From Nepenthes gracilis (taxonomy: Eukaryota > Streptophyta > Magnoliopsida > Caryophyllales > Nepenthaceae), in NCBI GenBank assembly GCA_033239525.1, contig BSYO01000013.1, forward strand, positions 9,510,501 to 9,574,500: a stretch of DNA of 64,000 nucleotides. Direction: 5' to 3'. Shown here one piece after another: positions 3,156 to 60,903 of the stretch (positions are counted from its first letter, which is position 1; each line of letters begins with the position of its first letter). Both the position numbers and the translations under genes were made by a program. The notes beneath the pieces were generated by a model that was not told the DNA's origin, made no database searches, and was given only the letters and a program-made list of their open reading frames with translations.

Positions 3156-5198
3156 TCGACCCCCCTCCTCCCTGCCATTCGAATCCCTTGAACCTACTCT
3201 CCCCCGTTCCTCACCCGTCTGCTTCCCATGGCTCTCCGTCTCCCGCATTCTCCCGTCCAGGCACGACATGGCCTTTCGGCTCCCCTCACCTTTCATCTCT
3301 CCTCCCTCCCAATCCTCTCCGATCGCCCCCGTCCTCCCATCAATGCCTATCGAATCTTGTCGACCTAGCCTGATCTACCGTTCTCTTTCATCCCCTTCAT
3401 TGGCGGACTCGGATTTCACTGCGCTCCCTCCCCCCTCCTCTCTACCTTGCCCCCCTGTTTTCCACCACTTGAACGCCGTCCTTAACCCTCCTCCCTCTTC
3501 GCCCCCACCTCTCGCCTCCTTCATCTCTGAGGAGGTCCCTTTTAGTCCGAGGGTGTCGGCCTCTGGTCCGGTCCTTCTGTCATCAGCCGAATCAACCCTC
3601 AAGTCCTAGCCCCTCTCTATTGCGTCTCCTGACGCCGTCAACAATGGTGAACCGTTCGGTTCTAATATCCAGCAGTTTTCAATCGGTCCTCCATCGTGCT
3701 TGTCCGGCTCTCCTAATGGAGTGAGATTTTGTTCTGCAGCCCTAGAGATTGTGGATTGCCCATCTGATCCTCCAGTCTCTTTTCCTGGCTCTTCTGACCA
3801 AGGCAGTCAGCTCATGGCAAAACGTCCAATTAACGAAGCTATTGCTGAAGCCTCTTGCCCAACCAAAGCTGGTGATTCCTGCTCGCCGGGAGCTTCTTGG
3901 GCGTCAATTGTTGAGAAAAGGGCTATTGGAGGTAAATGCCCTCTTAAATTCTTCCCTCCGACTTTTTCCGATCTAGAGAATATCATCTTATCCCCCCTCC
4001 CGATGTTATCCAACAGGGAGCGGATTTATGGGGTACTACCCTTGTTGGTTACTTCGACGGCAATCCCGTCCACTTTACTGTTGTTAGCTATATCACTAAG
4101 AAAATTTGGAAGCGATTTGAACTACAACATGTGGCTAGAAATGATTCGGGTTTCTTTTTCTTCCGCTTCTCCTCAAGCACAATGCTTGAAAAATGTTTGG
4201 CAAATGGCCCGTGGATAATTGCCGGCCATCCTTTTTTTCTTAAAAAATGGTGGCCCGGAATGATTTTATCCCGTGAGGATCACAAATCCTTCCCTACCTG
4301 GATCACCATGTCTGGGATCCCGGTTGAATACTGGACCCCGCTAGGCTTAAGCTGGATTGTGATTGCGGTTGGAAAACCCCTCTTTTTAGGCCCTGTCACT
4401 GAAAAACTCGAATGCTTTGGTTTCCCTAGGGTTTGTGTTGAAATGGGGGTCAATGCTCCTCGGCCGGAATCTATAAAGGTTCATGCTAAAGGATGTGCTG
4501 AGCATCCGACTGATCACCTATGCGATATCAAAATTGAATATCAGCATAGGCCGACGCCCAGGCCCGTTACTGGAAAAAATAGGAATAAGAGTCACCCTAT
4601 CAAAACTTCTTGGGCTCCTAAACAGGCTGTCACTTCTCGAGGCGTCCTTCCTTCCCCAAAGTCTCCTAGGACGCCTTCACGCTCAAAATCTCCGGTTATG
4701 GCGGCCCCCATGACCATTGATTTAGATCATAAGGCCATAACGACTTCTAACTTGTTTATGGCCTTACAGGAGGATGTTCATGAACCTCCACACAGTCACA
4801 ATAGCTCCAACCCTGTTTCGGTGCCCGCCGAGGTCCAGGTTGACCCCATCCTGCCTCAGGGCACTGCCGCTATCGGCTCTCCTAGTCGGGCTGCTAAGTC
4901 GTCTACCCCGCCTGGGCCTGGGGGTCCCACTCATTGTCAGGAGCCTCCCAGTACCTTTAACATGGATATTGAAAGGTCTTCCTCCGCACCAGGTTTGTCT
5001 GGTACTATTAGCCATCAGCTACCTCTCACACCAGATACGCCGATGGTCACCACTCTCTGCGATCCACCTTTTGGTCCTCCTGGTAGCCTGATTGGTGTCG
5101 ATCCTTCTCCTAAAACTAAGGAGCGTGCTCCATCTCGGAGAAATAAAAAATCTCGGGGGATTAAAAATCATCCCCCTCCCACCCGTATTCACGACTAG
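3146..5198 (+). pseudogene. Inner LINE ORF1 (DUF4283 protein), frameshifted
   Basis: LINE ORF1. The Pro/Ser-rich N-terminus starts at the ATG in the hairpin (MAPVDPPPP), stops at 3371-3373, continues in another frame to 3609, then at 3700-4000 with SWASIVEKRAIGG and LKFFPP. A frameshift near 4000 moves the DUF4283 core to a third frame, where the open frame 4131-5198 reads NDSGFFFFRFSS, MLEKCLANGPWII and MSGIPVEYW. The C-terminal 250 residues are Pro/Ser-rich and end with a basic stretch. The zinc knuckle expected after IEYQHRPTP is not recognisable. The stop at 5196-5198 overlaps the first endonuclease codons of ORF2, which continue in another frame. Confidence 0.8.
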
Positions 5199-8100
5199 CA
5201 TCGCCAGTTGGAACGTGAGGGGACTAAATGGGCTTGTAAAAGCCCATGAAGTCTGCAACCTCATTAACTCCCATAGGTGTAGCATTGCTGCCTTGGTGGA
5301 GACCAAGGTCACGGAAAGAAACTCTCAGATTGTTTCCACTAGAATCAGACCAAATTGGTCTTGGGTTATGAATTATTCTGCGTCTCCGAGTGGTCGCATT
5401 TGGGTGGGTTGGGATCCCACTTTGTTTTCATGCACCGTCCTCGCCTCGGAGGATCAGGTAGTTCATCTTGAGGCCCTTTTCCTTGAGGAGAATACTCACT
5501 GCCTGCTGTCTTTTATCTATGGTGCTAACTCAGAAATTTCTCGTCGGCTTCTATGGGACAGCCTTCGGATGATGTCTAACCATCCGGGCAACCTTCCGTG
5601 GGCTGCCCTTGGGGATTTCAATGCCATTAGGTCCCATACCGAGGCATTGGGTGGCATCTGGCACAACAAAAGCTCGCCTGATCTGGATCACTGCCTTAGA
5701 GATTGTGACCTTGATGACGTTTGTCATGAAGGTATGCACTATACCTGGAATGACGGTCGCGACTCTTCCCTTCGCATTTTTAGAAAGCTTGATCGTGTGG
5801 TCGCAAATGGACATTGGTTCGACAAATTCAGATGGGCTGAAGCCCTTTTTCCCCCTCCTAGACTTTTTGACCATTCGCCTTGTGTTCTTCTCACTTCTGG
5901 ATTTCTTCCCAGAAAGAACGGGATGTTTCGGTTCAATAATTTCCTCACCAAATCTCCAAATTTCCATCCCTTGGTTGCAGATGCTTGGTCGGACGCCACC
6001 ATTGGATTTTCGATGTTTAGGCTTGTGGCTCACCTTAAATTGGTGAAAAAGGCCCTGAAAAAGCTTAATGTCAACGAGGGTGATGTCCACGAGGAGGTTG
6101 TTCGCCTGAGGAAAAAGCTTGAGGAGATCTAGGGCAAACTCCTCAAACCTTGTGTGTCATCTCGAAGAACGCAGCAGTTGTAAGGATGCTTATCACGATG
6201 CGCTTGCCAAGGAAGCTGACCTTACTAAGCAAAAAGCTAAGATAAGGTGGCTCAAAGAAGGTGATCAGTGTAATAAATTCTTTTTTAAGACTGTTAATGG
6301 AAACAACAATAAGAATCGGATCATCTCACTCCTTGATCTTGATGGTAACCCTACCAATGGTATCAAAAATGTCAAAATCTGATTGTGGATCACTTTAGTA
6401 AGGCTCTTGGGGACCGGGCGCACATCGGTTCGCTAATGCGGATCGCCTTCGCCGTACATCCTCCATACTGTACCTGAATCGCTTATGGACTTTCTGGCGG
6501 GCCCGGTAAGTGATGATGAGATCTGCAAGATGATTTTCTCTATAGGTGACTATAGGGCCCCGGGGCCTGATGGATTCAGTGCCCTTTTTTTTTAAAGAAG
6601 CATGGGACATCGTGGGCCAATCTGTTTGTGAAGACATCCGGTGACTTTTTAATCATGGTTTGCTCCTCAAACAAATAAATTCCACGATCATTAGCCTGAT
6701 CCCCAAGGTTCAGTCTCCTCGGCTGGTCTCTGACTATCGTCCCATTTCTTGCTGTAATGTCATCTATAAAGTTATCTCGAAGATCATTGCAAATCGGCTA
6801 AAGATAACATTACCCTATCTGGTTGATAAGTGTCAGACGGCCTTTGTGGCGGGTCGCCAAATCAGTGACAACATTCTCCTGGCCCAAGAACTTCTCCATA
6901 AGTACCCACGGGTCATGGACCTCCTCGATGTACCTTGAAAATTGACCTCGTGAAAGCCTATGACTCTATTCTCGGGATTTCATCATATCACTCCCGACCA
7001 TCATGAATTTCCGCCCAAAATGATAAATTGGATCAAGCAGTGTATTACCACTCCCTCGTACTCGATCAATATTAATGGGGAAGCGGTTGGTTTTTTCAAA
7101 GGAGGTAAAGGCCTTCGCCAAGGTGATCCAATTTCTCCTTACCTCTTTGTCTTTGGTGATGCAGGTCCTGAATGGTATCATTGAACTCAAGGCTCGCAGG
7201 AACAATAACTTCACATTTCATTGGAATTGTGAAGCGACCAAAACTGTCATGCTGGCCTTTGCCGATGACCTCCTTCTCTTCTCTCATGCTGATGCGAGCT
7301 CCATCCAGATTCTCAAGGATTGCCTTGAGGAATTTCATTGGTTGTCTGGCTTATTGGCGAACAAAAATAAGAGCGAGACCTTCCTATGCGCTAAAGACCC
7401 TGCCCTAATTCAGAATATCGTTGATGTATTGGGCTTCAAAGTGGGATCTCTCCCTATCAGATACCTTGGAGTCCCTCTGATCACTACCAGGCTGTCGATA
7501 CGTGACTGTACGACCCTTACTGAGAAAATTACCCGGTGCATTAAATCTTGGAAGAATAAGTGGCTCTCCTTCGGAGGTCGCCTACAATTAGTTGCCTCGA
7601 TTCTCTCATCTGTTCACCTCTACTGGGCTTCGATCTTCATCTTACCCAAATCCATTCTTAACCAGATCAATTGCATATTTAGGCGATTCCTATGGAATGG
7701 ATCTTCGGAGGATAAGGCAAATGCAAAAGTGGCTTGGGCCGATATCTGTTACCCAAAGAACGAAGGAGGGTTAGGTCTCAAGAACTTACAGGCTCAAAAT
7801 AAAGCCCTCATCTGTAAGCTTTTCTGGCGCATCCTGTCTAAGGATCCTGATTCGGCTTGGTCCTCTTGGATCCACAAGACTAGGATCAAGGATCGCTGTA
7901 TCTGGACCCTCAAAGTCCCTGACTCTGCTCCCTAGAGCTGGAAGAAGATCATGAATCTTCGTCCTTTCATGTGCACGCACACCACAAAGATCATCGGAGA
8001 TGGCATGGATACCTTTGTCTGGCATGACCACTGGCACCCTCAGGGCCCTCTCAGTAGTGTTTGTACCGACCGCATACGTTACATCTTTGGGTTATCGGAG

Positions 8101-8745
8101 ATGCCAAGGTTTCTCGGATAATTAAAGATAACCATTGGTTTGGCCTAACCCTTATGATCGGGAGGTTTCTAGCCTTGTTGAAAACATGCCCCAAGTATCT
8201 TCCCAACTCCGAACGAAAAGACTCCCGAGATGGGTGGATGCCAAAATGGTATCTTTTCGACCAAGACTATCTACCTCCTTTTTCACCCCCCCAAGCTCAA
8301 ACTGTGTTGGACCAAATTAGTATGGGGCCCCTTCTATATTCCCGCCCACGCATTTACTTTTTGGTTGGCAATCAAAGGCAGGCTAAATACATCCGACCGT
8401 GTTCACGGCGTCCTAAATCTATCTCTCACCTGCTCTCTATGTGACTCGGATGATGAAAATCATGACCATCTTTTCTTCTCCTGTCCCTTTTCTAAAGCCG
8501 TGTGGACCACCATCCAACGGAATGCTGGTATTCATTGGCCTTACCCAAACTGGTCACAAAATGTTATTTGGGCTGCTCACAGGTGGAAAGGAAAAAATCC
8601 TACTGCTATGTCTAAATGTCTCTCTCTGGCGGCTACTGTCTATTACATTTGGAGAAAACGTAACAACCGTATTTTTGAGAAATCCCCCCTCAGGACATAT
8701 CCCATATATGCTCCCAGATATCAAACGCTGTTCGGGAAAAGTTGA
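5092..8745 (+). pseudogene. Inner LINE ORF2: endonuclease and reverse transcriptase, broken
   Basis: ORF2 would nick target DNA and copy the element RNA there. The AP-type endonuclease runs from 5197 (SIASWNVRGLNG) with LVETKV, GDFNAI and a DHSP stretch to about 5900. The RT runs from about 6480 to 7440: APGPDGF, SLIPKV, DYRPISCCNVIYK, a motif-A-like KIDLVKAYDS near 6930-6965, GLRQGDPISPYLFV, and the catalytic FADD at 7258-7269. Downstream come RYLGVPL, GGLGLKNLQ and an RT zinc-binding C-terminus (CSLCDSDDENHDHLFFSCPFS) at about 8420-8490. The frame is open to 6132, then shifts at about 6130, 6400-6650, 6930, 7075 and 7935-8230. The DHSP and FADD motifs remain although the chain is broken. 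Confidence 0.9.
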
Positions 8746-10624
8746 GGGCCTCATTGCCCCGTACTAGTCACCATAACCTTTCGGTGGCTAGACGTTGGAA
8801 TATATATAAAAAAAAAAATGGCTCTCACCACAAATCTTTTTTTTTTTTCCTTTTCTTCTCCTCTTCTCCTTCCTCTCCCCTTTTCTTTACTTTTCCTTTT
8901 CTGTTTTCCTCTCCAAAAAAAAAAAAAAAAAACCCTCTTTTTCCTCCCGTTGCTTTTTTAAAAAAAAAAACAACAACAACAATTGCTGAGGATGTTGGTA
9001 TCCTGTCCCTTGTTCACTGTTGCTGCTTCCGGTGGTTTGTGTGGATCATTCTGCTGCACCAGGATGGTCTTTTGAAGTGCTGGTGCACTTTGGCACTGTC
9101 GACTCTTTCTGGTTGCATTGTTGAATCTGTGAAGATGTCTGAATTCCCTTGTCTTTCTCCGGTTTCTGGTGCTACTGATATGTGTTGAGACGCAGTTTGA
9201 TGAGGTTTCTCCCGGCTTGATTCTGTGATGTGTTTTGAACTGGACTGTTGCAGTGGTTTATGGCTGGAGGTTATGTGGGTTGGGACCCTGGTGATCTGTG
9301 GCTATTCTACTCCTGGTCATGGATCTGTTGGTTCTCAGATGAGTGTAATGATATGGACCTGATTGGCTGGTTCTGTTCTGGTTTTGCCGAGCTGTTGAAA
9401 CTCAGACGTGATTTGCTCAGTCAGGCTCTCTGCTTCGTTACTATTGTTGCACATGAGGCACTGCTTAGGCGCTGGAGTTGCCATTGAAATCTGTTTTATC
9501 TCATGGTTGCTGGCTTTCTTGGTCCTCTTTTAACCAGTGGCTGGCCAGGCATTGATTTCATATTTCCTTCTGCTGCTCCAGTTGCTCGTCTGTACATAGC
9601 TGCATACTTATCCATCTGCTGTGAACCTATGGTTTTGTGGATATTCCCTGTTGCTGGTTCTGCCATCATTATTGCTTGGTGGATGATGTTGAGATGATGG
9701 AGCACTGCCAACAATGTTGATGGTGGAATTGCTGATCGTGAAGGTGCTGTCTTCCAGGATGCTGTTACCCATGCTGTTGAATAGGCTGCTGGCCTTCTGG
9801 GTGCTGATGCTATCAAACGATGCTGATGCCTTTCTGGTGTGTGGTATGCTGCTTGCTGAAGCGTTATGGGCTTCTGAGATGTGGGTTGCTTTGGCTGCCA
9901 TGATGGAACGATTGTGCTGATCACGAGCCATGATGCACTCGGTTGCTGCTGGAGGCATTGCTAGGGGTTGGGGTAATGGGTGATGAGGTTGGAGTAGCCC
10001 TGCTGGTGCTGCGGCTTGGGATGTAGATCGTGCAGGTGCTGGTTGTTTTCCTGCGCAGTGTCTCAAGCTGGGCTCCTGAATTTTGGTCTATGTGAGCCGG
10101 AATTCATTCTGTTGTGTGCATGTTTCTTCTGATTTCTTGACATTTTCTACTGGGATGCGTTTTTTCTATCACGATTTTGCTGTTGTCAATGACTACTATT
10201 TGCTGGAATGCTGGAATGAGTTTCCTTTTGCTGTGGCCCGGTATAATTGGAACTCAGTTGGCTGTGAACTTGACTTCGGTGCTGGTTATCCCTCTGGGTG
10301 CGTCCGGCTGCTATTGATTGCTCCGATGCATAAGAAGGTGCTGTTATGCTTGCTCTATCATGGCGACTTGCTGACCGGTCTGTGGGCTACCCTCCTGAAG
10401 TGAGGGTTTTAGGCGTAGACTTCAACGATCTTGCTTGTGTGAAAATGATGGAATTTCCATTTTCTGTTTTTTGTGATTGTTCCTAATGTTTTTTTTTCTT
10501 TTGTTGTACCTGTTGCTCGGGGCATGCCCTAGCTCTTTATGTTTTACCTCTAAGTACAATACTTGGAGTTAAAACATTTAGTTTGTAATTTTTTTCTCCC
10601 ATTAATCTAAAATTCTTACTTACC
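8746..10624 (+). other. Long 3' UTR of the inner LINE
   Basis: About 1.9 kb without a credible gene. It has A and T runs near 8810-8970, then 1.4 kb rich in TGCTG/GCTGTT words on the + strand. The end, with gcatgccctag, ttatgttttac, acttggagttaaaac and ttcttacttacc, matches the 294-bp LINE copy at 32088-32381. Short open frames here are by-products of the skewed composition. Confidence 0.7.
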
Positions 10625-10640
10625 AAAAAAAAAAAAAAAA

Positions 10641-12127: not shown

Positions 12128-12498
12128 AATGTCATTTTGAATTTTTTGTTACTATTTGCGGTGCATGTTGTCGTCCTGCAGTTTTAAAGGATGAGTAGGA
12201 GAAATTTTACTCGTTGATCTTTGCTGTATTGTTTGTTCTCTTGCTTTCATGTCTTATGTCATGGTTTTCAGGGTCTGCCCCTGTACTATGTTCTGCTTCC
12301 AAGTTAACAAAACACTTGGAATAGAATATAGATGTTGTATTTTCTTTCTTGTCATTTAATGTAATTTACTTACTTACCAAAAAAAAAAAACCTAATACAT
12401 GTGAATTTGAAATAAGTTGGCAATTCCCTTCCCCATGATTTTATCTTATCTTGATAAATATTTGAGCTATATTTTTTTTTTACTTTTCAATTTAAAAT

Positions 12499-20900: not shown

Positions 20901-21249
20901 CAAAGATCTATACCTCTATCTAGTGGTGTCAGACACGGCCCTGAGTTCGGTTCTCATTCGGTAGTAGGAAGATGTGTAGCAACCCGTGTACTACTCAAGC
21001 AAGGTGCTAACAGACAAGGAGTCCTGCTACCCTCACACCCAATGGATCGCTCAAGCCCTCATCCACTCTGCCAGAAAGTTGAGGCTATACTTCTAGGCAC
21101 ACCACATCATTGTATTGATTGACCAGCCACTAAAAGGTTCCTACAAAATCGAAGACGTCCAGATGACTGGTCAAATGGGTTATAGAGTTGGGTAAGTTTG
21201 ACGTGGAGTTTTGACCCTAACCAACCTTGAAGGATTAGGCCCTCATAGA

Positions 21250-21720
21250 CTTCATGGTCGAAATGATGACCCCTGCTCTTGATGCCACCGATCAGGTCGA
21301 AGGCATAAACGTTTCGAGTGCCCTGATATGGACCTTAAACGTTGACAAATCATCTACGCAGGCAAGTAGCAAGGCCGGCATCATTCTCGGAACACCCGGT
21401 GGCAAAAAAATAAAGTACTCTCTAGCACTCAGATTCCCATCAACCAACAACGTCACCGAATACGAAGCCCTTCTTATGGGACTCAAGTTAGCCAAGGAGT
21501 GTTCCGCAAAGGCACTGGTCGTGGTACAGTAACTCAGAGTTGGTGGTTAACCAGATCCAAGGGACTTTTGAGGTATCAAACCGTCAGCTCGCCAAGTACC
21601 TTGCTAAGGTAAGAGCTCAGGCCTAGACATTCGAGACGGTCAAAATCGTGCATATCCCGAGGACAGAGAACTGGAAAGAAGACCAACTGGCCAAGGTCAC
21701 TATGATGGGGTCTCAAGAGC
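21250..21720 (+). pseudogene. Gypsy RNase H, broken
   Basis: RNase H domain that would remove the RNA template. WTLNVDKSSTQASSKAGIIL (normally DGS) opens the domain; KYSLALRFPSTNNVTEYEALLMGLKLA carries the conserved Glu; NSELVVNQIQGTFEV follows after a frameshift near 21530; HIPRTENWKEDQLAK ends it. The first Asp remains (VDKSS). Confidence 0.88.
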
Positions 21721-24040: not shown

Positions 24041-26079
24041 CTAAGAGTGGAAGACCCCAACTTCTCCTAAGAAGTCCGTTAGTAAAGACTGATCCCGAAC
24101 ACCATCGTTCCTTGGGTCAAAAATCCCTCCGGAGACGTCAGGGACCATCACGGATGCTATTCGATTGCACAAACGTATACCGTCCCATAACCCAATGTAT
24201 AGCACTCGTCCAATCTCCTCTAGAGAAAGCCGAGTCTGTAGGTCAACTTCGACGCGGGCACTTTGGGCATGGAGCACAGAGACATGGCTGCGAGCTGCCT
24301 GCAGCTCACTCTTCAGCAATTCGTTTTCTTCCAGGGTCTAGGCTCTCTCCTCTCTCAAGGCAAACAGCTCCTACCTCAGGACGGATATCTCATCTTCCCC
24401 GCACAGTCTTTGCTGCACTGCGTGGCCTCCTCTCGAGCACAGCGGATGAGTTCATCTCGGCGAAGGAGGCCCATCTTGATGAGGTGGATCAAAGCCATGC
24501 TCTACAAAGGAGAAACAAAGAAAGAAAGCTAATGAGTCTCGGATAAACAGTAATCTATTCCACGAAGGGAATCAACAAACACAATCAGGGCTTGTGGGGT
24601 GAAGAAGTCATACCTTGAGGAAGGACTCCACCGCAACATCAGGTGGATCTGGTGCGATCCCATGTGCAGGCATAACTAGGGTCTTGGGATGTGCAATGCA
24701 CTCCCCCCTTCCTCCCTCACATGCCTCGCTCACTAGGGATGCCGCATCAACCTCCTCGGGTTGACCTGGGACCATAGCAGATTCTGGAACCACAATCGCT
24801 GGAGACCCCATAGCTGATGCATCAACAATCTCCAACATGTCCGTAGGCTCAGTATTTTGCTCAACGTCCACTATGTCAATGATAGCCACCTATGCCGCCT
24901 CAACGATCTCACCGACGGCAACAGCTATCTCCACTTCGGCATCCATGACAACCTCCACTGCGGCGAGTTCTACCGGCCAGTCCTCGTGGGAGGATCCAGT
25001 AGCAATACCAACAGGAGAACACGGCGTAGACTCCACAACCAATGGATAATTGATAAGTGGGACACTGTACTACATGAGGGCAATGATAGGAATCTGCAAA
25101 GTCCTAGTAGCTCTCTCCTGTGACTAGGATTCCAGCCCCAACGATGCCGGAGTAGTGCCAACCAATGTTGACTGGACATATCTGGACTACTAGCCCAATA
25201 CAACCAGCAATATTAGAGCTCTCTTGCTCGACGTACCTCCAGCCCTCCTCAGCCTCTTCAAGGCTGCCATGCCTCACTCGAGGAGGACTCCCAAGAAGAA
25301 GATGAGTATTGCCGCTCAAGCAACTTGCGGGATGGCTCCTGAATGACCAGTGTTTTGACCTTCCACTTTTGAGCAGCAGGTGCCACTGCACCCTGGTGGG
25401 TTCCCACCTGACCTCAGCGAAGAGCTCTGGGGTCAAATAATACCCCTTCATGCCGAATGTCTTGATCATCTCTAGGATGAGGCTCGTCAACGCCTCTTCC
25501 TTTTCTGTATCCTTCCAGCTTGCTTTCCCCATAAAGTACTCCCCCACGAAGCCCCAAATGTTGGGAATATCCCACTCAGGAGAAGCCACCAAGAAAAAGA
25601 AACGGTCCTTCCAGTACTTCGTAGAGTCAAGGATTGTCCCACGAAAGCGGAAGCCGAGACGAGGTAACATAGAAACCCAATCCTTTGCTTGGTTGAAGCA
25701 AAAAATCACATTCACTAGCTGAGAACTGAACTCGCGATTATAAGATGAGTGAAGACAAACAAGGAGACTAAGTAACGTACAGCGTTGGGATGAAATCACG
25801 CTACAGGTATGCCCAATGTCGACAGAATCCTATACAGATCCAACTTTTTTTTTGGTAAGTAAGAATCCTATACAGATCCAACGCCACAGGGAAACGGAGC
25901 CCACCCTTCAAGTGGGACTCATAGATAGTGATGAAACCTTCCGAAGGTGCACATGCTCCTCCATCCTCGCCAGGAAGGAGATGAGCCATGTCCTTCGGGA
26001 AGCGATACCTCACAAGTAAGGCCGCAGCGGTGCTGGAAGTCAGGATAGACTTAATATCACCGACTCTCTAGTGAGCCAT
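24041..26079 (-). pseudogene. Antisense ORF of the Gypsy element (Transposase_28-like)
   Basis: The protein reads opposite to gag-pol. The start MAH at 26079 is supported by the related ORF at 62028, which also begins MAH. A stop follows at codon 4. Then come RYRFPKDMAHLLPGEDGG and GFITIYESHLKGGLRFP, resembling the plant 'putative gypsy type transposon' family (Pfam Transposase_28, from memory). The open frame 25799-25104 continues with KYWKDRFFFLVASPEWDIPN and MKGYYLTPELFAEVRW. An acidic middle (24608-24990) and a coiled-coil-like C-terminus (ELLKSELQAARSHVSVLHAQ), ending near 24041, follow. A gap near 24540-24610 may be an intron. Function unknown; a 17-bp LINE insertion at 25845 shifts the frame. 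Confidence 0.7.
25824..25882 (-). mobile_element. 17-bp LINE-tail insertion with 21-bp TSD
   Basis: A 21-bp sequence starting agaatcctat occurs exactly at 25824-25844 and 25862-25882. Between the copies lie 17 bases (25845-25861): nine T then ggtaagta, on the minus strand TACTTACC plus nine A. That is the 3' terminus of the LINE family here (12374-12390 and 10619-10640). Confidence 0.85.
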
Positions 26080-26547
26080 GGGTGGGGCAGACTATTTTTT
26101 CTTCATTGACAAAGTGTCGAGTAAGATGATTTGAAAGTGTAAATGGCAGTGGAAGGCAGTGTTTAAATAGGCCAGGGCAAGAGACCTCAAATCGCGTCGC
26201 ACGGGGAACTCAAGGGTTGCTCTTGATGATGCCCTAACACTCGTCCCTTCAGTAGGGAATAGCGTGTCTTTCCAATCAACCCATAATGACGCCTGACACA
26301 TTGCCCCGCGATGCATGCTCCAACCGTCCATCAAGTCTCAAGTATCGCAACAAGAAAAAAAATGTAAGGACACAGGCCGTTAAGGGCTGCCACAGCGGCA
26401 GCCTATCTGACTGCCTACCCGAAAGTACCATACCAGATAATTAGGAGCAACATGCTGACACGAGCGGGCTAATTTATAAAAAGAAAATTTTATTAATGAA
26501 GTTTCTTTACAACTGGAGGCATCCAGTGGCCTCGAAATACAACAAAA

Positions 26548-27324
26548 CTATCTACGCTTGTCAGGCTCCGCAGAATCCAAAGCAGAGAACTTAGTCAGCT
26601 CTAAATGTGTGGAAGCTCCCTCATTCCACGAGTCCAGGAAGCCTGTAGGGAAGCCGGTCATCACCAGAGAAGCTATCCTTCGGCTCAGGCGAATCCCGTC
26701 CTGGAATCGCCCCTCCAACATCGGGGCCAACACTTCAGGACGAATCTTTAACCTCAACTTGGCCTCTAGCTGTGTCTGTGTGCCACCTTGGTCTTGAAGC
26801 CACACTTGGCACAATTAAAACTCCCCCTAAAGCGTCGCTATCCAACTCCAAGCCTGAACATTGGCCTCAGCAAGTTATGATGACCTGGCCTTAGCTTCCG
26901 ACAAGGCTTGTTCGAGGTAAACTACTTACCAAAAAAAAATTGTTCGAGGTAAACGACCCTCGCCCGGCTCTACCAACATTTGCGATAGTTGCCTGCACCC
27001 GGCGCTCAACTTCCTTAGTTGCCCGTTGGGCACGAAGAATCAACCGACCTACATTGTTAGGACCACATGCCAAGAGGAGTTGGAAGCTCCTTCAGATTCA
27101 AAACCCGGTAGCGCCCTCCGGAACCCCATCGGCCCAAGGATTGATGGCTCCAAATGGTAACCTCCTGCTACTGCTGCAACGGTAGAATCCCCCTCATCAT
27201 GCTCTCTTTGCTCCTGCTCCTCCCATCTTGATTCATCAGTGGAAGGATTGGACTCAAAAGAAGAGGATGATCCCACTGGCTGGGTCGGCAACTCCGAGAT
27301 GACGACACGTCTTTCATCATCCAT
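26548..27324 (-). pseudogene. Second antisense ORF of the Gypsy element
   Basis: Opens at 27324 with MDDERRVVISELPTQPVGSS, an acidic Ser/Glu-rich N-terminus, then RLILRAQRATKEVERRVQA (about 27040-26985) and a helical stretch, and ends with RFQDGIRLSRRIASLV and GFPTGFLDSWNEG at 26548-26720. The last part matches the C-terminus of the neighbouring antisense ORF (LWDGIRLCNRIASVMV, GGIFDPRNDG at 24080-24160), so one probably arose by duplication. No known domain. A 17-bp LINE insertion at 26923 with its 15-bp TSD shifts the frame. Confidence 0.6.
26908..26954 (+). mobile_element. 17-bp LINE-tail insertion with 15-bp TSD
   Basis: ttgttcgaggtaaac occurs exactly at 26908-26922 and 26940-26954. Between them are 17 bases (26923-26939), TACTTACC plus nine A, identical to the minus-strand insert at 25845-25861. 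This is a LINE insertion with only 8 non-poly-A bases. Confidence 0.88.
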
Positions 27325-34652: not shown

Positions 34653-37600
34653 CTAGCAAGTGCCGTTTGAATGGTTTTCAAAGGAAGCAGGAAGCAGCCC
34701 CTTCTCGCGGCACGTCTCGATCGCCCCGACAAACATGTCCTCCAGGCTGTACTTGAACTCGAACCCCTCTTCAATCAGCTTCTTGGAAGAGAAGGAGACC
34801 CTGTCCAGGTTCTCATCAATGTCCTTAAACCTGGCCACCAATCAAAATCGTAATGTAAGTCCCAGTACCAATGTCAGGCAGGTTGATCACCCACAAAAAC
34901 GCTCCCCCAAACCGTCCAACTTACATACATATGCATAATTCACGTCCCAGCATTAACATAATGTGTAATAAAACACAAATATAATATATAGTCCGTATAT
35001 TTATGGATAGATTTATCGTGTAATTAGAATTCATTTGAAACGAAGTGCCACTTACTTCGTTGGCACATTGTACTCTGGGTATTTTTCGTTGATCAACTTG
35101 GCGATGTCGTAGATGGTGGCATCATGGGAGGAGCAAATGTATCGGCCTTTTGCTTTAGGGTGTTCAAACAAGTAGATGTGAGACATGCAGAGGTCGTCCA
35201 GGTGAACAAATTGCACTTGCTTTATTATCGAATAGTGCGACTCGGTTCCTGCAATTTCGCAACCCGATTACACTACTTCGGCCACAGTTGTTTAAGAACC
35301 TTCACAAACAGATAAACACATTTTGTTTCCCCAGAGTAGCACCAAACTCAAGTTCAGTTAGCTAGATCGGGTTTACTTGTAAGTGGGGAGAGCGCGGTGA
35401 TGAGGCTGGGAGGCATCGTCGGCATGATGAATGGGCCGACGACCAGTGTCGGTATGATGCTGATGAAATCGATGTTGTTCTCCGCGGCAAACTTCCACGC
35501 AGCTTTCTCCGTAAGTGTTTTCGACACAAAATACATCTGCATTTCCCAAGACAAAGTTAATCGCAATACTTGGAGCAGCTGCTGTGCTCACTTGTATAGC
35601 TAAAGACGGAGACGGAGAGAGAAAACTCGTGACACGAACCCAGCCGGTCATCTTCTTGGAGCGGACGAAGTCAAGGTCGCTCCAGCAGCTTTCGTCATAC
35701 ACAGGCTTCTGAACTTCCTCAACATTGACTGTTCCAGCAGATGATGTGAACACAAGCCTTCGAACAGTCTTTGCCTTTGCACATGCTTTCATTATGTCCA
35801 ACATGCCATTTATGGTGGGCTTTATTACTTCGTTCTGCAGACCAACAACGGCATTCACGGACCAATCAGGCACACAAGACAAACACGCCCGCCCCTTGAA
35901 TCCATTAATTCTTTGATATCTTCACCCAAGACAAACAAATTTTACGATAGAATCTTAAATCCCACCACTAAAGACAACAAATTATATGTTAAAATATGGT
36001 TGAATTTACAATGCTACAGGGTTTCTAAACTATCCGTCGGTCCGATATTATCAAAACTCAGATAGGCTAAGACGTACGGTGGACCATGGGCATGGGCTCC
36101 ACCGCCTCAGAGATCATTTTAGAGGCCCCACGAATCGTGGAAAATCGTCTGAGTGCCCAAATAAGTAGAGTCCGGGCCCCCAATCTTAAACGGGAGCCCT
36201 AACAATGTGCCAAATAATTACTAGCAAATTACTAATTTATATATCCTTAACACGATTTGATATATTGCTTAATATGGTCAAATCTAAATCAAGAAGTGGA
36301 AAGTGCGTCGTATTAAACATATTATTAGAAATGAATATACTGAGTAATATTGCAAATAAATATGGTTTTGCTTGATTCGTATACGAAATAACTATTAAAA
36401 TTCCAACGCAAAAGGGAATTTCATTTAACCAAATCGGCACTAAGTATGGAAAGTGGCCCATCATGCATTTCATTTTCTTTTTATACAATAATATTTCCTT
36501 TTATGGTATAATTCATTCACTGCGAGTTGGCTATTTATTACATTTTTATATACACATTTATTCCTCTAATTATATGAGGAAGAGAATAACAATTGAAACA
36601 TTGCCTACGCAGTTACCACAAGTTTATTTTTGCTTTTTGATTTTTAAATTTTATTTTAAAATTATTATAACTTATTACTTTATAAATTTATAAAATATAA
36701 TACTATTTAAATAATAATAAGTGATTATAAAATTATTATTTTATAAATTTATAAAATATAAATATATATATATAATAAATAATAAAAATTTAATCTAATT
36801 TATAACTAAATTTATTTATAAATTTTTTATAAATTAATATTTTATAAAAAATTTAAAATATATACAAATTAAATGAAATAAAAAGAAAATGAAAAGGGAG
36901 GGAGGCGACTGTCCATTGGATTAAATCCAACAAATGCTAACACTTACCGCCTCAGTGCTACGCGTCCTTCTCAATGTATTGTCTAAATCCACTGAAAAGA
37001 CATGCCGAGTACGACCGTTTCAATTTGTTGTTTCTTCTCCGTTTCCATTACCGAAATAAAGCTTCTTTCTTTCTTCCTCTCCTTACTTTACCCCCATTTC
37101 TTTGGCCATGTATTCAGGGGCATGCTGGACTTATCCAATCAATTTCCCCCCTTTTTTTTAAATATATATATATGCCAAAAACGTGTGAAAAAATAATTGG
37201 TTCAAGGAATCATAATAAAATTTGTTATATAAAATGGTAAATAAATGGAAGAAACCACCAGTGAAATTACCTCAGGGTCCTTGGAGTCGAAGTCCATGGG
37301 GGTGGCGACATGAAAGACACCAGAGCAGCCATGGATGGCTTCGTCAAAGCTTCCCTCTTGAGTCAGATCGGCTTTCCAAAGCGTCAAGTTATTCTCTGCG
37401 TTTGGCAAATCCAGTAGATGCTTTACCTTCTTCATGTTCCCTAAACACCCCCAACAAAAATCACATTCACATGAATTAACTCTTCATATCTTACCATTCA
37501 AACCTCCTCCTCAACCGCAACATCCACAAGGGTATGGTCGGAAAAAGTCTCAGAAAATAAGGTCTACTGCTAATCAAACTCGAGATCATCCAATTGGTAT

Positions 37601-60295: not shown

Positions 60296-60903
60296 TTGAA
60301 ACATTTTTATATATCAAATAATTACTTATAGAGATTTCTATATTATGGTTATTATTATTATTATTATTGTTATTATTATTATTTTAAAAACTATGAGATA
60401 AATTGGCCCTGGGTCTCTTCTTTTAGATGAAAAACGGGATGTAGTTATTCTATTCTATATTTAGAGTTGACAACAAGCCTGATTAAAATCAAACTCAAAA
60501 CAGATACATGTCGGGCGAGTTAACAAAATTTTCTCCCTAAAGCAGGACTGGGCAGGTCTAGGCTCAATTTACCATGCTGAAATGATACTTGTGACCATTC
60601 CGTTTAATAAACAATGCGGTCATAGGCTGTTCGTGTGATCGTTATTAATTTTTTTTTAAAATTATATAACAAATTTTATGACTTGTTTTTTTATTCATTA
60701 TATAACGAATATTATAACTTATTTTTTCGGGCAGTTGCAGGCTACTTGAGTCCTAAACTGATATTTTTTCTTCATTAAAATTAATATCACTTAATATGAT
60801 AAAATAAAAATAATCAAATTATAATTATTTAGTTGTCGTATTTTTTATAAATTTTTTTGGTAAGTAATAATGTGTTAGAATAATATAAATAAATATACAC
60901 ATA
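60296..60903. other. AT-rich spacer
   Basis: No gene. (TTA)n at 60349-60383. tttttttggtaagtaa at about 60854-60869 looks like a reversed LINE tail, but no TSD was found. Confidence 0.5.

Follow-up and report, generated by a model that had tools for sequence, protein, structure and literature searches.

Introduction

Insertions of L1 and other long interspersed nuclear elements (LINEs) that arise by target-primed reverse transcription (TPRT) and are truncated at the 5' end carry a 3' poly-A tail, share an identical 3' terminus, lie between target-site duplications (TSDs) and have empty targets in paralogues. All of these features recur in two 17-bp inserts within a 64,000-nucleotide stretch of Nepenthes gracilis DNA (GenBank assembly GCA_033239525.1, contig BSYO01000013.1, positions 9,510,501 to 9,574,500 of the forward strand; hereafter the window, with coordinates counted from its first base). 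Unlike the described truncated copies, these inserts and their counterparts elsewhere in the genome, here called stubs, keep only 7-10 nt of template beside the tail and end at a nearly fixed point, and among 100 listed places they are about as frequent as recognisable LINE copies. The stubs are best explained, with a probability of roughly 0.6, as products of abortive TPRT by a plant L1-type LINE that halts just past a short terminal box.

Two groups of plant L1 elements stand closest to this source LINE. A conserved, covarying 3' hairpin has been reviewed for the monocot 1a lineage of "stringent" plant L1 elements (Ohshima, PMC3747384); the conserved 3' end and the covarying hairpin are common to both, whereas the sequence of the source LINE differs: its hairpin is 17 bp long, A/T-rich and some 40 nt short of the end, and its terminal box is ACTTACTTACC. 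Celine, a centromeric L1 of poplar, has the same domain set as the source LINE, is likewise a DUF4283 plant L1 found in dense clusters, and has a short poly-A tail (12) and TSDs averaging 15 bp (PMC11288735). The likeness to Celine is drawn from these features, and the accessible part of that paper describes full-length and truncated copies but no stubs. A literature search among CC-licensed PMC papers returned no minimal insertions of the stub kind, which does not show their absence from print, and PMC13295347 had no bearing on them. Truncated TPRT products are already known; among the papers covered by this search, no counterpart turned up for a group of perhaps 2000 stubs that share a nearly fixed stop.

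Two stubs in the window and their empty sites

The insert of stub 1, TACTTACC followed by nine A, occupies 25845-25861 on the minus strand (reading T9-GGTAAGTA on the plus strand) between two identical copies of the 21-bp TSD agaatcctatacagatccaac at 25824-25844 and 25862-25882 (plus strand). Stub 2 consists of the same TACTTACC and nine A at 26923-26939 on the plus strand, flanked by two identical copies of the 15-bp TSD ttgttcgaggtaaac at 26908-26922 and 26940-26954 (plus strand). An earlier sequence-only reading had described exactly this arrangement, the same 17 bases between perfect direct repeats of 21 and 15 bp, and had identified the inserted sequence with the 3' end of the LINEs in the window, where the same terminus and tail do stand at 10617 and 12371. 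With up to one mismatch allowed, TACTTACCAAAAAA (the box and six A) occurs five times in the window, always exactly, against an expectation of 0.12 from shuffled sequences; four of the occurrences are the two stubs and the two LINE 3' ends, and at the fifth (60853-60866, minus strand, A7) the box is present and no flanking repeat could be placed.

Both sites are empty in paralogues. A 321-bp query for site 1, searched against the genome of the species itself (752.5 Mb), gave at least 47 matches, with 40 of 127 candidates scored; of the 30 paralogues that were fetched, 28 have none of the added bases and only a single copy of the 21-bp target. For site 2, the 21 of these 30 loci that have a BLAST match there were aligned, and 19 of them lack the 32 added bases and hold the 15-bp target once. 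The comparison with empty sites that had been proposed together with the sequence-only reading thus came out in its favour at both places. The only carriers, at either site, are the window itself (L031) and a duplicate (L032; G000:C13:9402196-9402518 plus flanks) that lies 134 kb away and matches window positions 24.2-27.5 kb with 97% identity over 3.3 kb. In the duplicate the tails have 11 and 10 A, versus 9 and 9 in the window. Because a copy that is 97% identical holds both stubs, both insertions predate the duplication and are not recent.

Frequency of stubs in the genome

The pattern TACTTACCAAAAAAAA has 7849 exact matches in the 752.5 Mb (3954 and 3895 on the two strands), and the reversed pattern has 10. 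The first 100 places listed in contig order (96 on contig 1 and four on contig 2) were all fetched and classified, a stub being called where a TSD scored at least 9 within three bases of the box and a LINE where the 92 upstream bases aligned to known LINE 3' ends with a score above 32, a cut-off that equals the 99th percentile of 328 random pieces (the maximum being 97, so that some of these pieces are themselves LINE). By these rules 37 places are stubs, 47 have LINE sequence upstream, one has both and 15 have neither. The first 70 sites comprise 33 stubs, 25 LINEs, one site with both (a tandem tail, L090) and 11 with neither; the other 30 comprise four stubs, 22 LINEs, none with both and four with neither. 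Five of the first 11 places in the last class (L010, L011, L023, L026 and L081) look like stubs with decayed or displaced repeats and were left uncounted. Extra bases of non-LINE origin were seen in three stub-like inserts, namely 20 T-rich bases in L026, 12 bases echoing the target in L081 and a second A-rich tract in L011.

Under the tighter threshold of a TSD score of at least 10, repeats flank 31 of the first 70 sites, compared with 26 of 4880 random positions and none of the 132 other A-runs found in these loci. Together with the counts for the forward and reversed patterns, these figures provide the excess over controls that the sequence-only reading had suggested looking for, and its remark that such events may be common is borne out by the 37 stubs in 100 places. 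The same figures bear on filler-DNA repair of staggered breaks, in which short duplications would flank a captured piece. Short duplications at repaired breaks are known in plants, and filler repair would account for them; random filler, on the other hand, should not yield a single box in such excess (7849 versus 10, in a search for which the box itself was the query) or leave all 132 other A-runs without repeats under the tight rule, and this origin is accordingly very improbable.

When sites are divided by the base that precedes the box, 860 have A, C or G (control 6) and 2001 have T but not CT (control 4), leaving 4988 by subtraction for the class preceded by CT. Stubs make up 14 of 20 sites sampled from the first class on contig 3 and 11 of 20 sampled from the second on contig 2, where the 20 sites fall in 19 regions and include near-identical neighbours in L113 and the near-identical pair L115 and L116. 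A rough estimate of about 2000 stubs with eight or more A in the whole genome follows from some 600 and 1100 in these two classes, with an assumed share added for each of two others, the CT class (4988) and the 7-nt class described below (721), the sampled places being the first listed and not random picks.

Where the inserts stop

The bases left between TSD and box were read in 39 rows, which include the two window stubs and one tandem-tail artefact. None are left in 14 rows (one of them the artefact), T is left in eight, TSD and box overlap by one or two bases in 11, and the remaining six rows have 2, 2, 2, 3, 11 and 12 bases. One-base leftovers in the contig 1 and 2 sample are T, the base found in the LINE, in seven of seven cases; in the contig 3 sample, from which T was excluded by design, they are three A and one G. 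An origin of the stubs from U1 small nuclear RNA (snRNA), whose nucleotides 2-9 match the box, was considered and rejected on account of the seven T leftovers. Later loss of the body from longer LINE copies is least credible of all: LINE sequence upstream of the same tail is plentiful (47 of 100 places), as that explanation would need, yet the deletion would repeatedly have to stop precisely at the junction of TSD and box, as in the 14 of 39 rows without a leftover base.

Shorter inserts were sought as well. The 7-nt class has 721 places genome-wide (control 18), and TSDs were found at eight of 14 places fetched from 21 listed on contig 1 outside its dense LINE cluster; of these eight, three (L177, L182 and L184) contain one more A, and a fourth, L176, resembles a longer variant. 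For the 6-nt class the count is 854 places (control 71), most of which are a G variant found where LINEs are dense; in a sample of 14, hand-picked from 100 listed and lying mostly outside such regions, three have TSDs and just one, L135, is genuinely a 6-nt stub. Where LINE-bearing sites have a credible TSD, L022 alone, at 37 nt, is intermediate in length between the stubs and the copies of roughly 200 nt or longer. Insert lengths in the sampled classes thus appear to have a mode at about 7-10 nt of template and not to decay from zero. The sequence-only reading had proposed a stop after eight bases; the short stop stands, and a chance halt at eight bases gives way to a nearly fixed stop at about 7-10 nt with few shorter products.

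A nearly fixed stop could also mean that the template itself was short. Decay of L1 RNA from the 5' side, stopped at a bound reverse transcriptase, could leave stable 3' fragments of box and poly-A that are copied to their end, and a stub would then be the complete copy of a protected footprint. The stop does stay nearly fixed relative to the 3' sequence of the RNA in stubs with A-runs of anything from 8 to 16, which is what the end of a template should produce. Inserts of 8-11 nt, however, continue into the LINE with leftovers of T, CT and ACT, so that the fragment end would have to vary; we consider the proposal unlikely.

The distribution of the tails brings in a further alternative. LINE tails are dense at C1:17355000-17507000 (about 150 kb), which holds 41 of the 100 listed places: seven stubs, 29 LINEs, one with both and four with neither. 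The 59 places outside comprise 30 stubs, 18 LINEs, none with both and 11 with neither, so that the ratio of stubs to LINEs is 30:18 outside versus 7:29 inside the cluster (Fisher p = 1.3e-4). This contrast could stem from nesting, from selection or from unequal completion of the copies. Ordinary 5' truncation followed by selection, with inserts of all lengths arising and the longer ones being lost from chromosome arms, would fit it; nevertheless, selection should not spare 7-10 nt and remove both 6 nt and 12-200 nt (with only L022, at 37 nt, in between), and this account is improbable, more so than a short template. Further clusters of LINE tails were seen at about 11.3-13.8 Mb on contig 2 and about 11.5-15 Mb on contig 3, and the dense clusters are possibly centromeres colonised by the source LINE.

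Target sites

TSDs scoring at least 10 were compared in 56 stubs from contigs 1-3. Their length ranges from 10 to 22 bp with a mode of 16 (15 of 56). A pyrimidine|purine step marks the start of the TSD in 36 of 56, compared with a background of 23% in the same loci. Cleavage sites of long or mid-length copies were available for comparison in seven copies only, read by eye.

The source LINE

The source element looks like a plant L1-type LINE, judging by a domain set that comprises DUF4283 in ORF1 and an endonuclease, a reverse transcriptase and a zinc-binding domain in ORF2. In the window these matches lie on the plus strand at 3948-5198 (DUF4283), 5092-6132 (endonuclease-like, Exo_endo_phos; 21.6 bits, below the curated cut-off of 24.5), 7027-7935 (RVT_1, just above its curated cut-off) and 8182-8745 (zf-RVT). 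They are followed at 10525-10640 (plus strand) by a LINE 3' end with a 17-bp hairpin, a linker, the terminal box at 10617-10624 and A16. A second, diverged LINE 3' end at 12279-12390 (plus strand) has the same terminal box at 12371-12378 and A12.

The 23 LINE 3' ends that were compared have a 17-bp hairpin, then a linker that varies around 40 nt, and lastly ACTTACTTACC followed by poly-A. In the hairpin, 88.1% of cells are paired, a value that drops to 35-47% when the strands are slid against each other, the structure having been derived from the same sequences that were used to score pairing. Eight of the 17 pairs have changed on both sides, a number reached by seven of 500 shuffles. The hairpin lies about 40 nt upstream and was for that reason dismissed as the obstacle that stops the enzyme at 8 nt.

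A proposed model of abortive initiation

The observed features of the insertions are about 7-10 template bases and poly-A between repeats of 10-22 bp, with both window sites empty in paralogues. Abortive TPRT is favoured by these empty sites, by the excess of TSDs over controls, by the seven of seven T leftovers, by the pyrimidine|purine starts and by the scarcity of 6-nt products, as well as by the TSDs at eight of 14 sampled 7-nt sites and by the conserved terminal box and hairpin. The coincidence of the stub and LINE-upstream classes at only one of 100 sites is also counted in its favour. In the proposed sequence of events, the L1 endonuclease would nick the target at a pyrimidine|purine step and the nick would prime on the poly-A tail; the enzyme would copy the tail and then the terminal box, (U)UACUUACC, and, still holding the 3' end of its own RNA, would often fail to move from initiation into elongation through the 3' UTR. 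Cleavage of the other strand some 16 nt away would follow, and repair by the host would fill and seal the site. By analogy only, the formation of stubs may be likened to abortive initiation by RNA polymerases, and the halt at the terminal box is our suggestion as to where the failure occurs.

Several points weigh against this explanation. The cleavage motif is weak, and the human L1 site is T-rich, unlike that of the stubs. The hairpin, some 40 nt away, is too distant to account on its own for a stop at 8. Few LINE-bearing copies with a placed TSD define the gap that separates stubs from long copies, the mode is read from samples, and the search took in only inserts with box sequence. A looser TSD rule, with up to 30 extra bases on the 5' side and up to 16 on the 3' side, passes 37 of 70 sites but also 10 of 132 A-runs and 109 of 4880 random positions. 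Finally, places were sampled from the top of the list in contig order or picked by hand, and 15 of 100 sites fit neither class.

Abortive TPRT may be joined to described steps of LINE integration. Early second-strand synthesis has been proposed as a cause of truncation in a structural study of human LINE-1 TPRT (PMC7617806), and factors of non-homologous end joining (NHEJ) were reported to limit the insert length of ZfL2-2 in chicken cells (PMC2666801); either early second-strand synthesis or NHEJ factors could convert a product stalled at 8 nt into a stub.

More tentatively, the L1 might possess a checkpoint between the initiation and elongation of TPRT that is keyed to the terminal UACUUACC box. 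Most initiations in chromosome arms would then fail and leave thousands of stubs of 15-25 bp that are invisible to annotation, more would pass in LINE-dense chromatin, and splice donors would possibly be scattered. Read backwards, a stub is T(n)-GGTAAGTA, a sequence identical to a consensus 5' splice site; the same holds for every antisense tail, and the box corresponds to nucleotides 2-9 of the U1 snRNA 5' end. The LINE may thus scatter ready-made splice donors as a side effect.

To judge by how frequent the scars are, the source LINE seems routinely to yield copies that fail early. Such a natural set of failed insertions bears on the timing and causes of arrest in LINE reverse transcription: it separates initiation from elongation within one genome, making nick-site choice, failure rate and dependence on chromatin measurable. 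Stubs would be a hidden source of frame-breaking insertions of 30-40 bp and would be useful for tracing descent; they would also mean that counts of recognisable copies understate LINE activity.

Tandem tails and other features of the window

Tandem tails, with at most 16 bases from the first six A to the next CTTACC, occur at 61 places genome-wide and at none in the reversed control. Units of box and A-run that recur after no more than a few tens of bases were seen in L090, L130, L180 and L185; L180, which differs from the exact pattern of the 61 places, has two tail units inside one TSD. Template jumps or nested insertions are possible origins of such tails.

With their duplications, the window stubs add 38 bases (site 1) and 32 bases (site 2), neither a multiple of three. 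The sequence-only reading had given these lengths correctly and held that an antisense open reading frame is shifted at both sites, an effect that was checked in part: a minus-strand stop-to-stop frame at 25104-25829 begins within the first repeat of stub 1, and no minus-strand frame of at least 90 aa crosses the site of stub 2. The stretch that bears the stubs had been labelled Gypsy, and this label is putative, drawing only on its repetition in the genome and on an RVT_3 match at 21239-21532 that scores 19.2 bits, below the cut-off of 21.6. Elsewhere in the window, an open frame at 35373-35921 on the minus strand resembles, by eye, part of a dihydroflavonol reductase-type gene.
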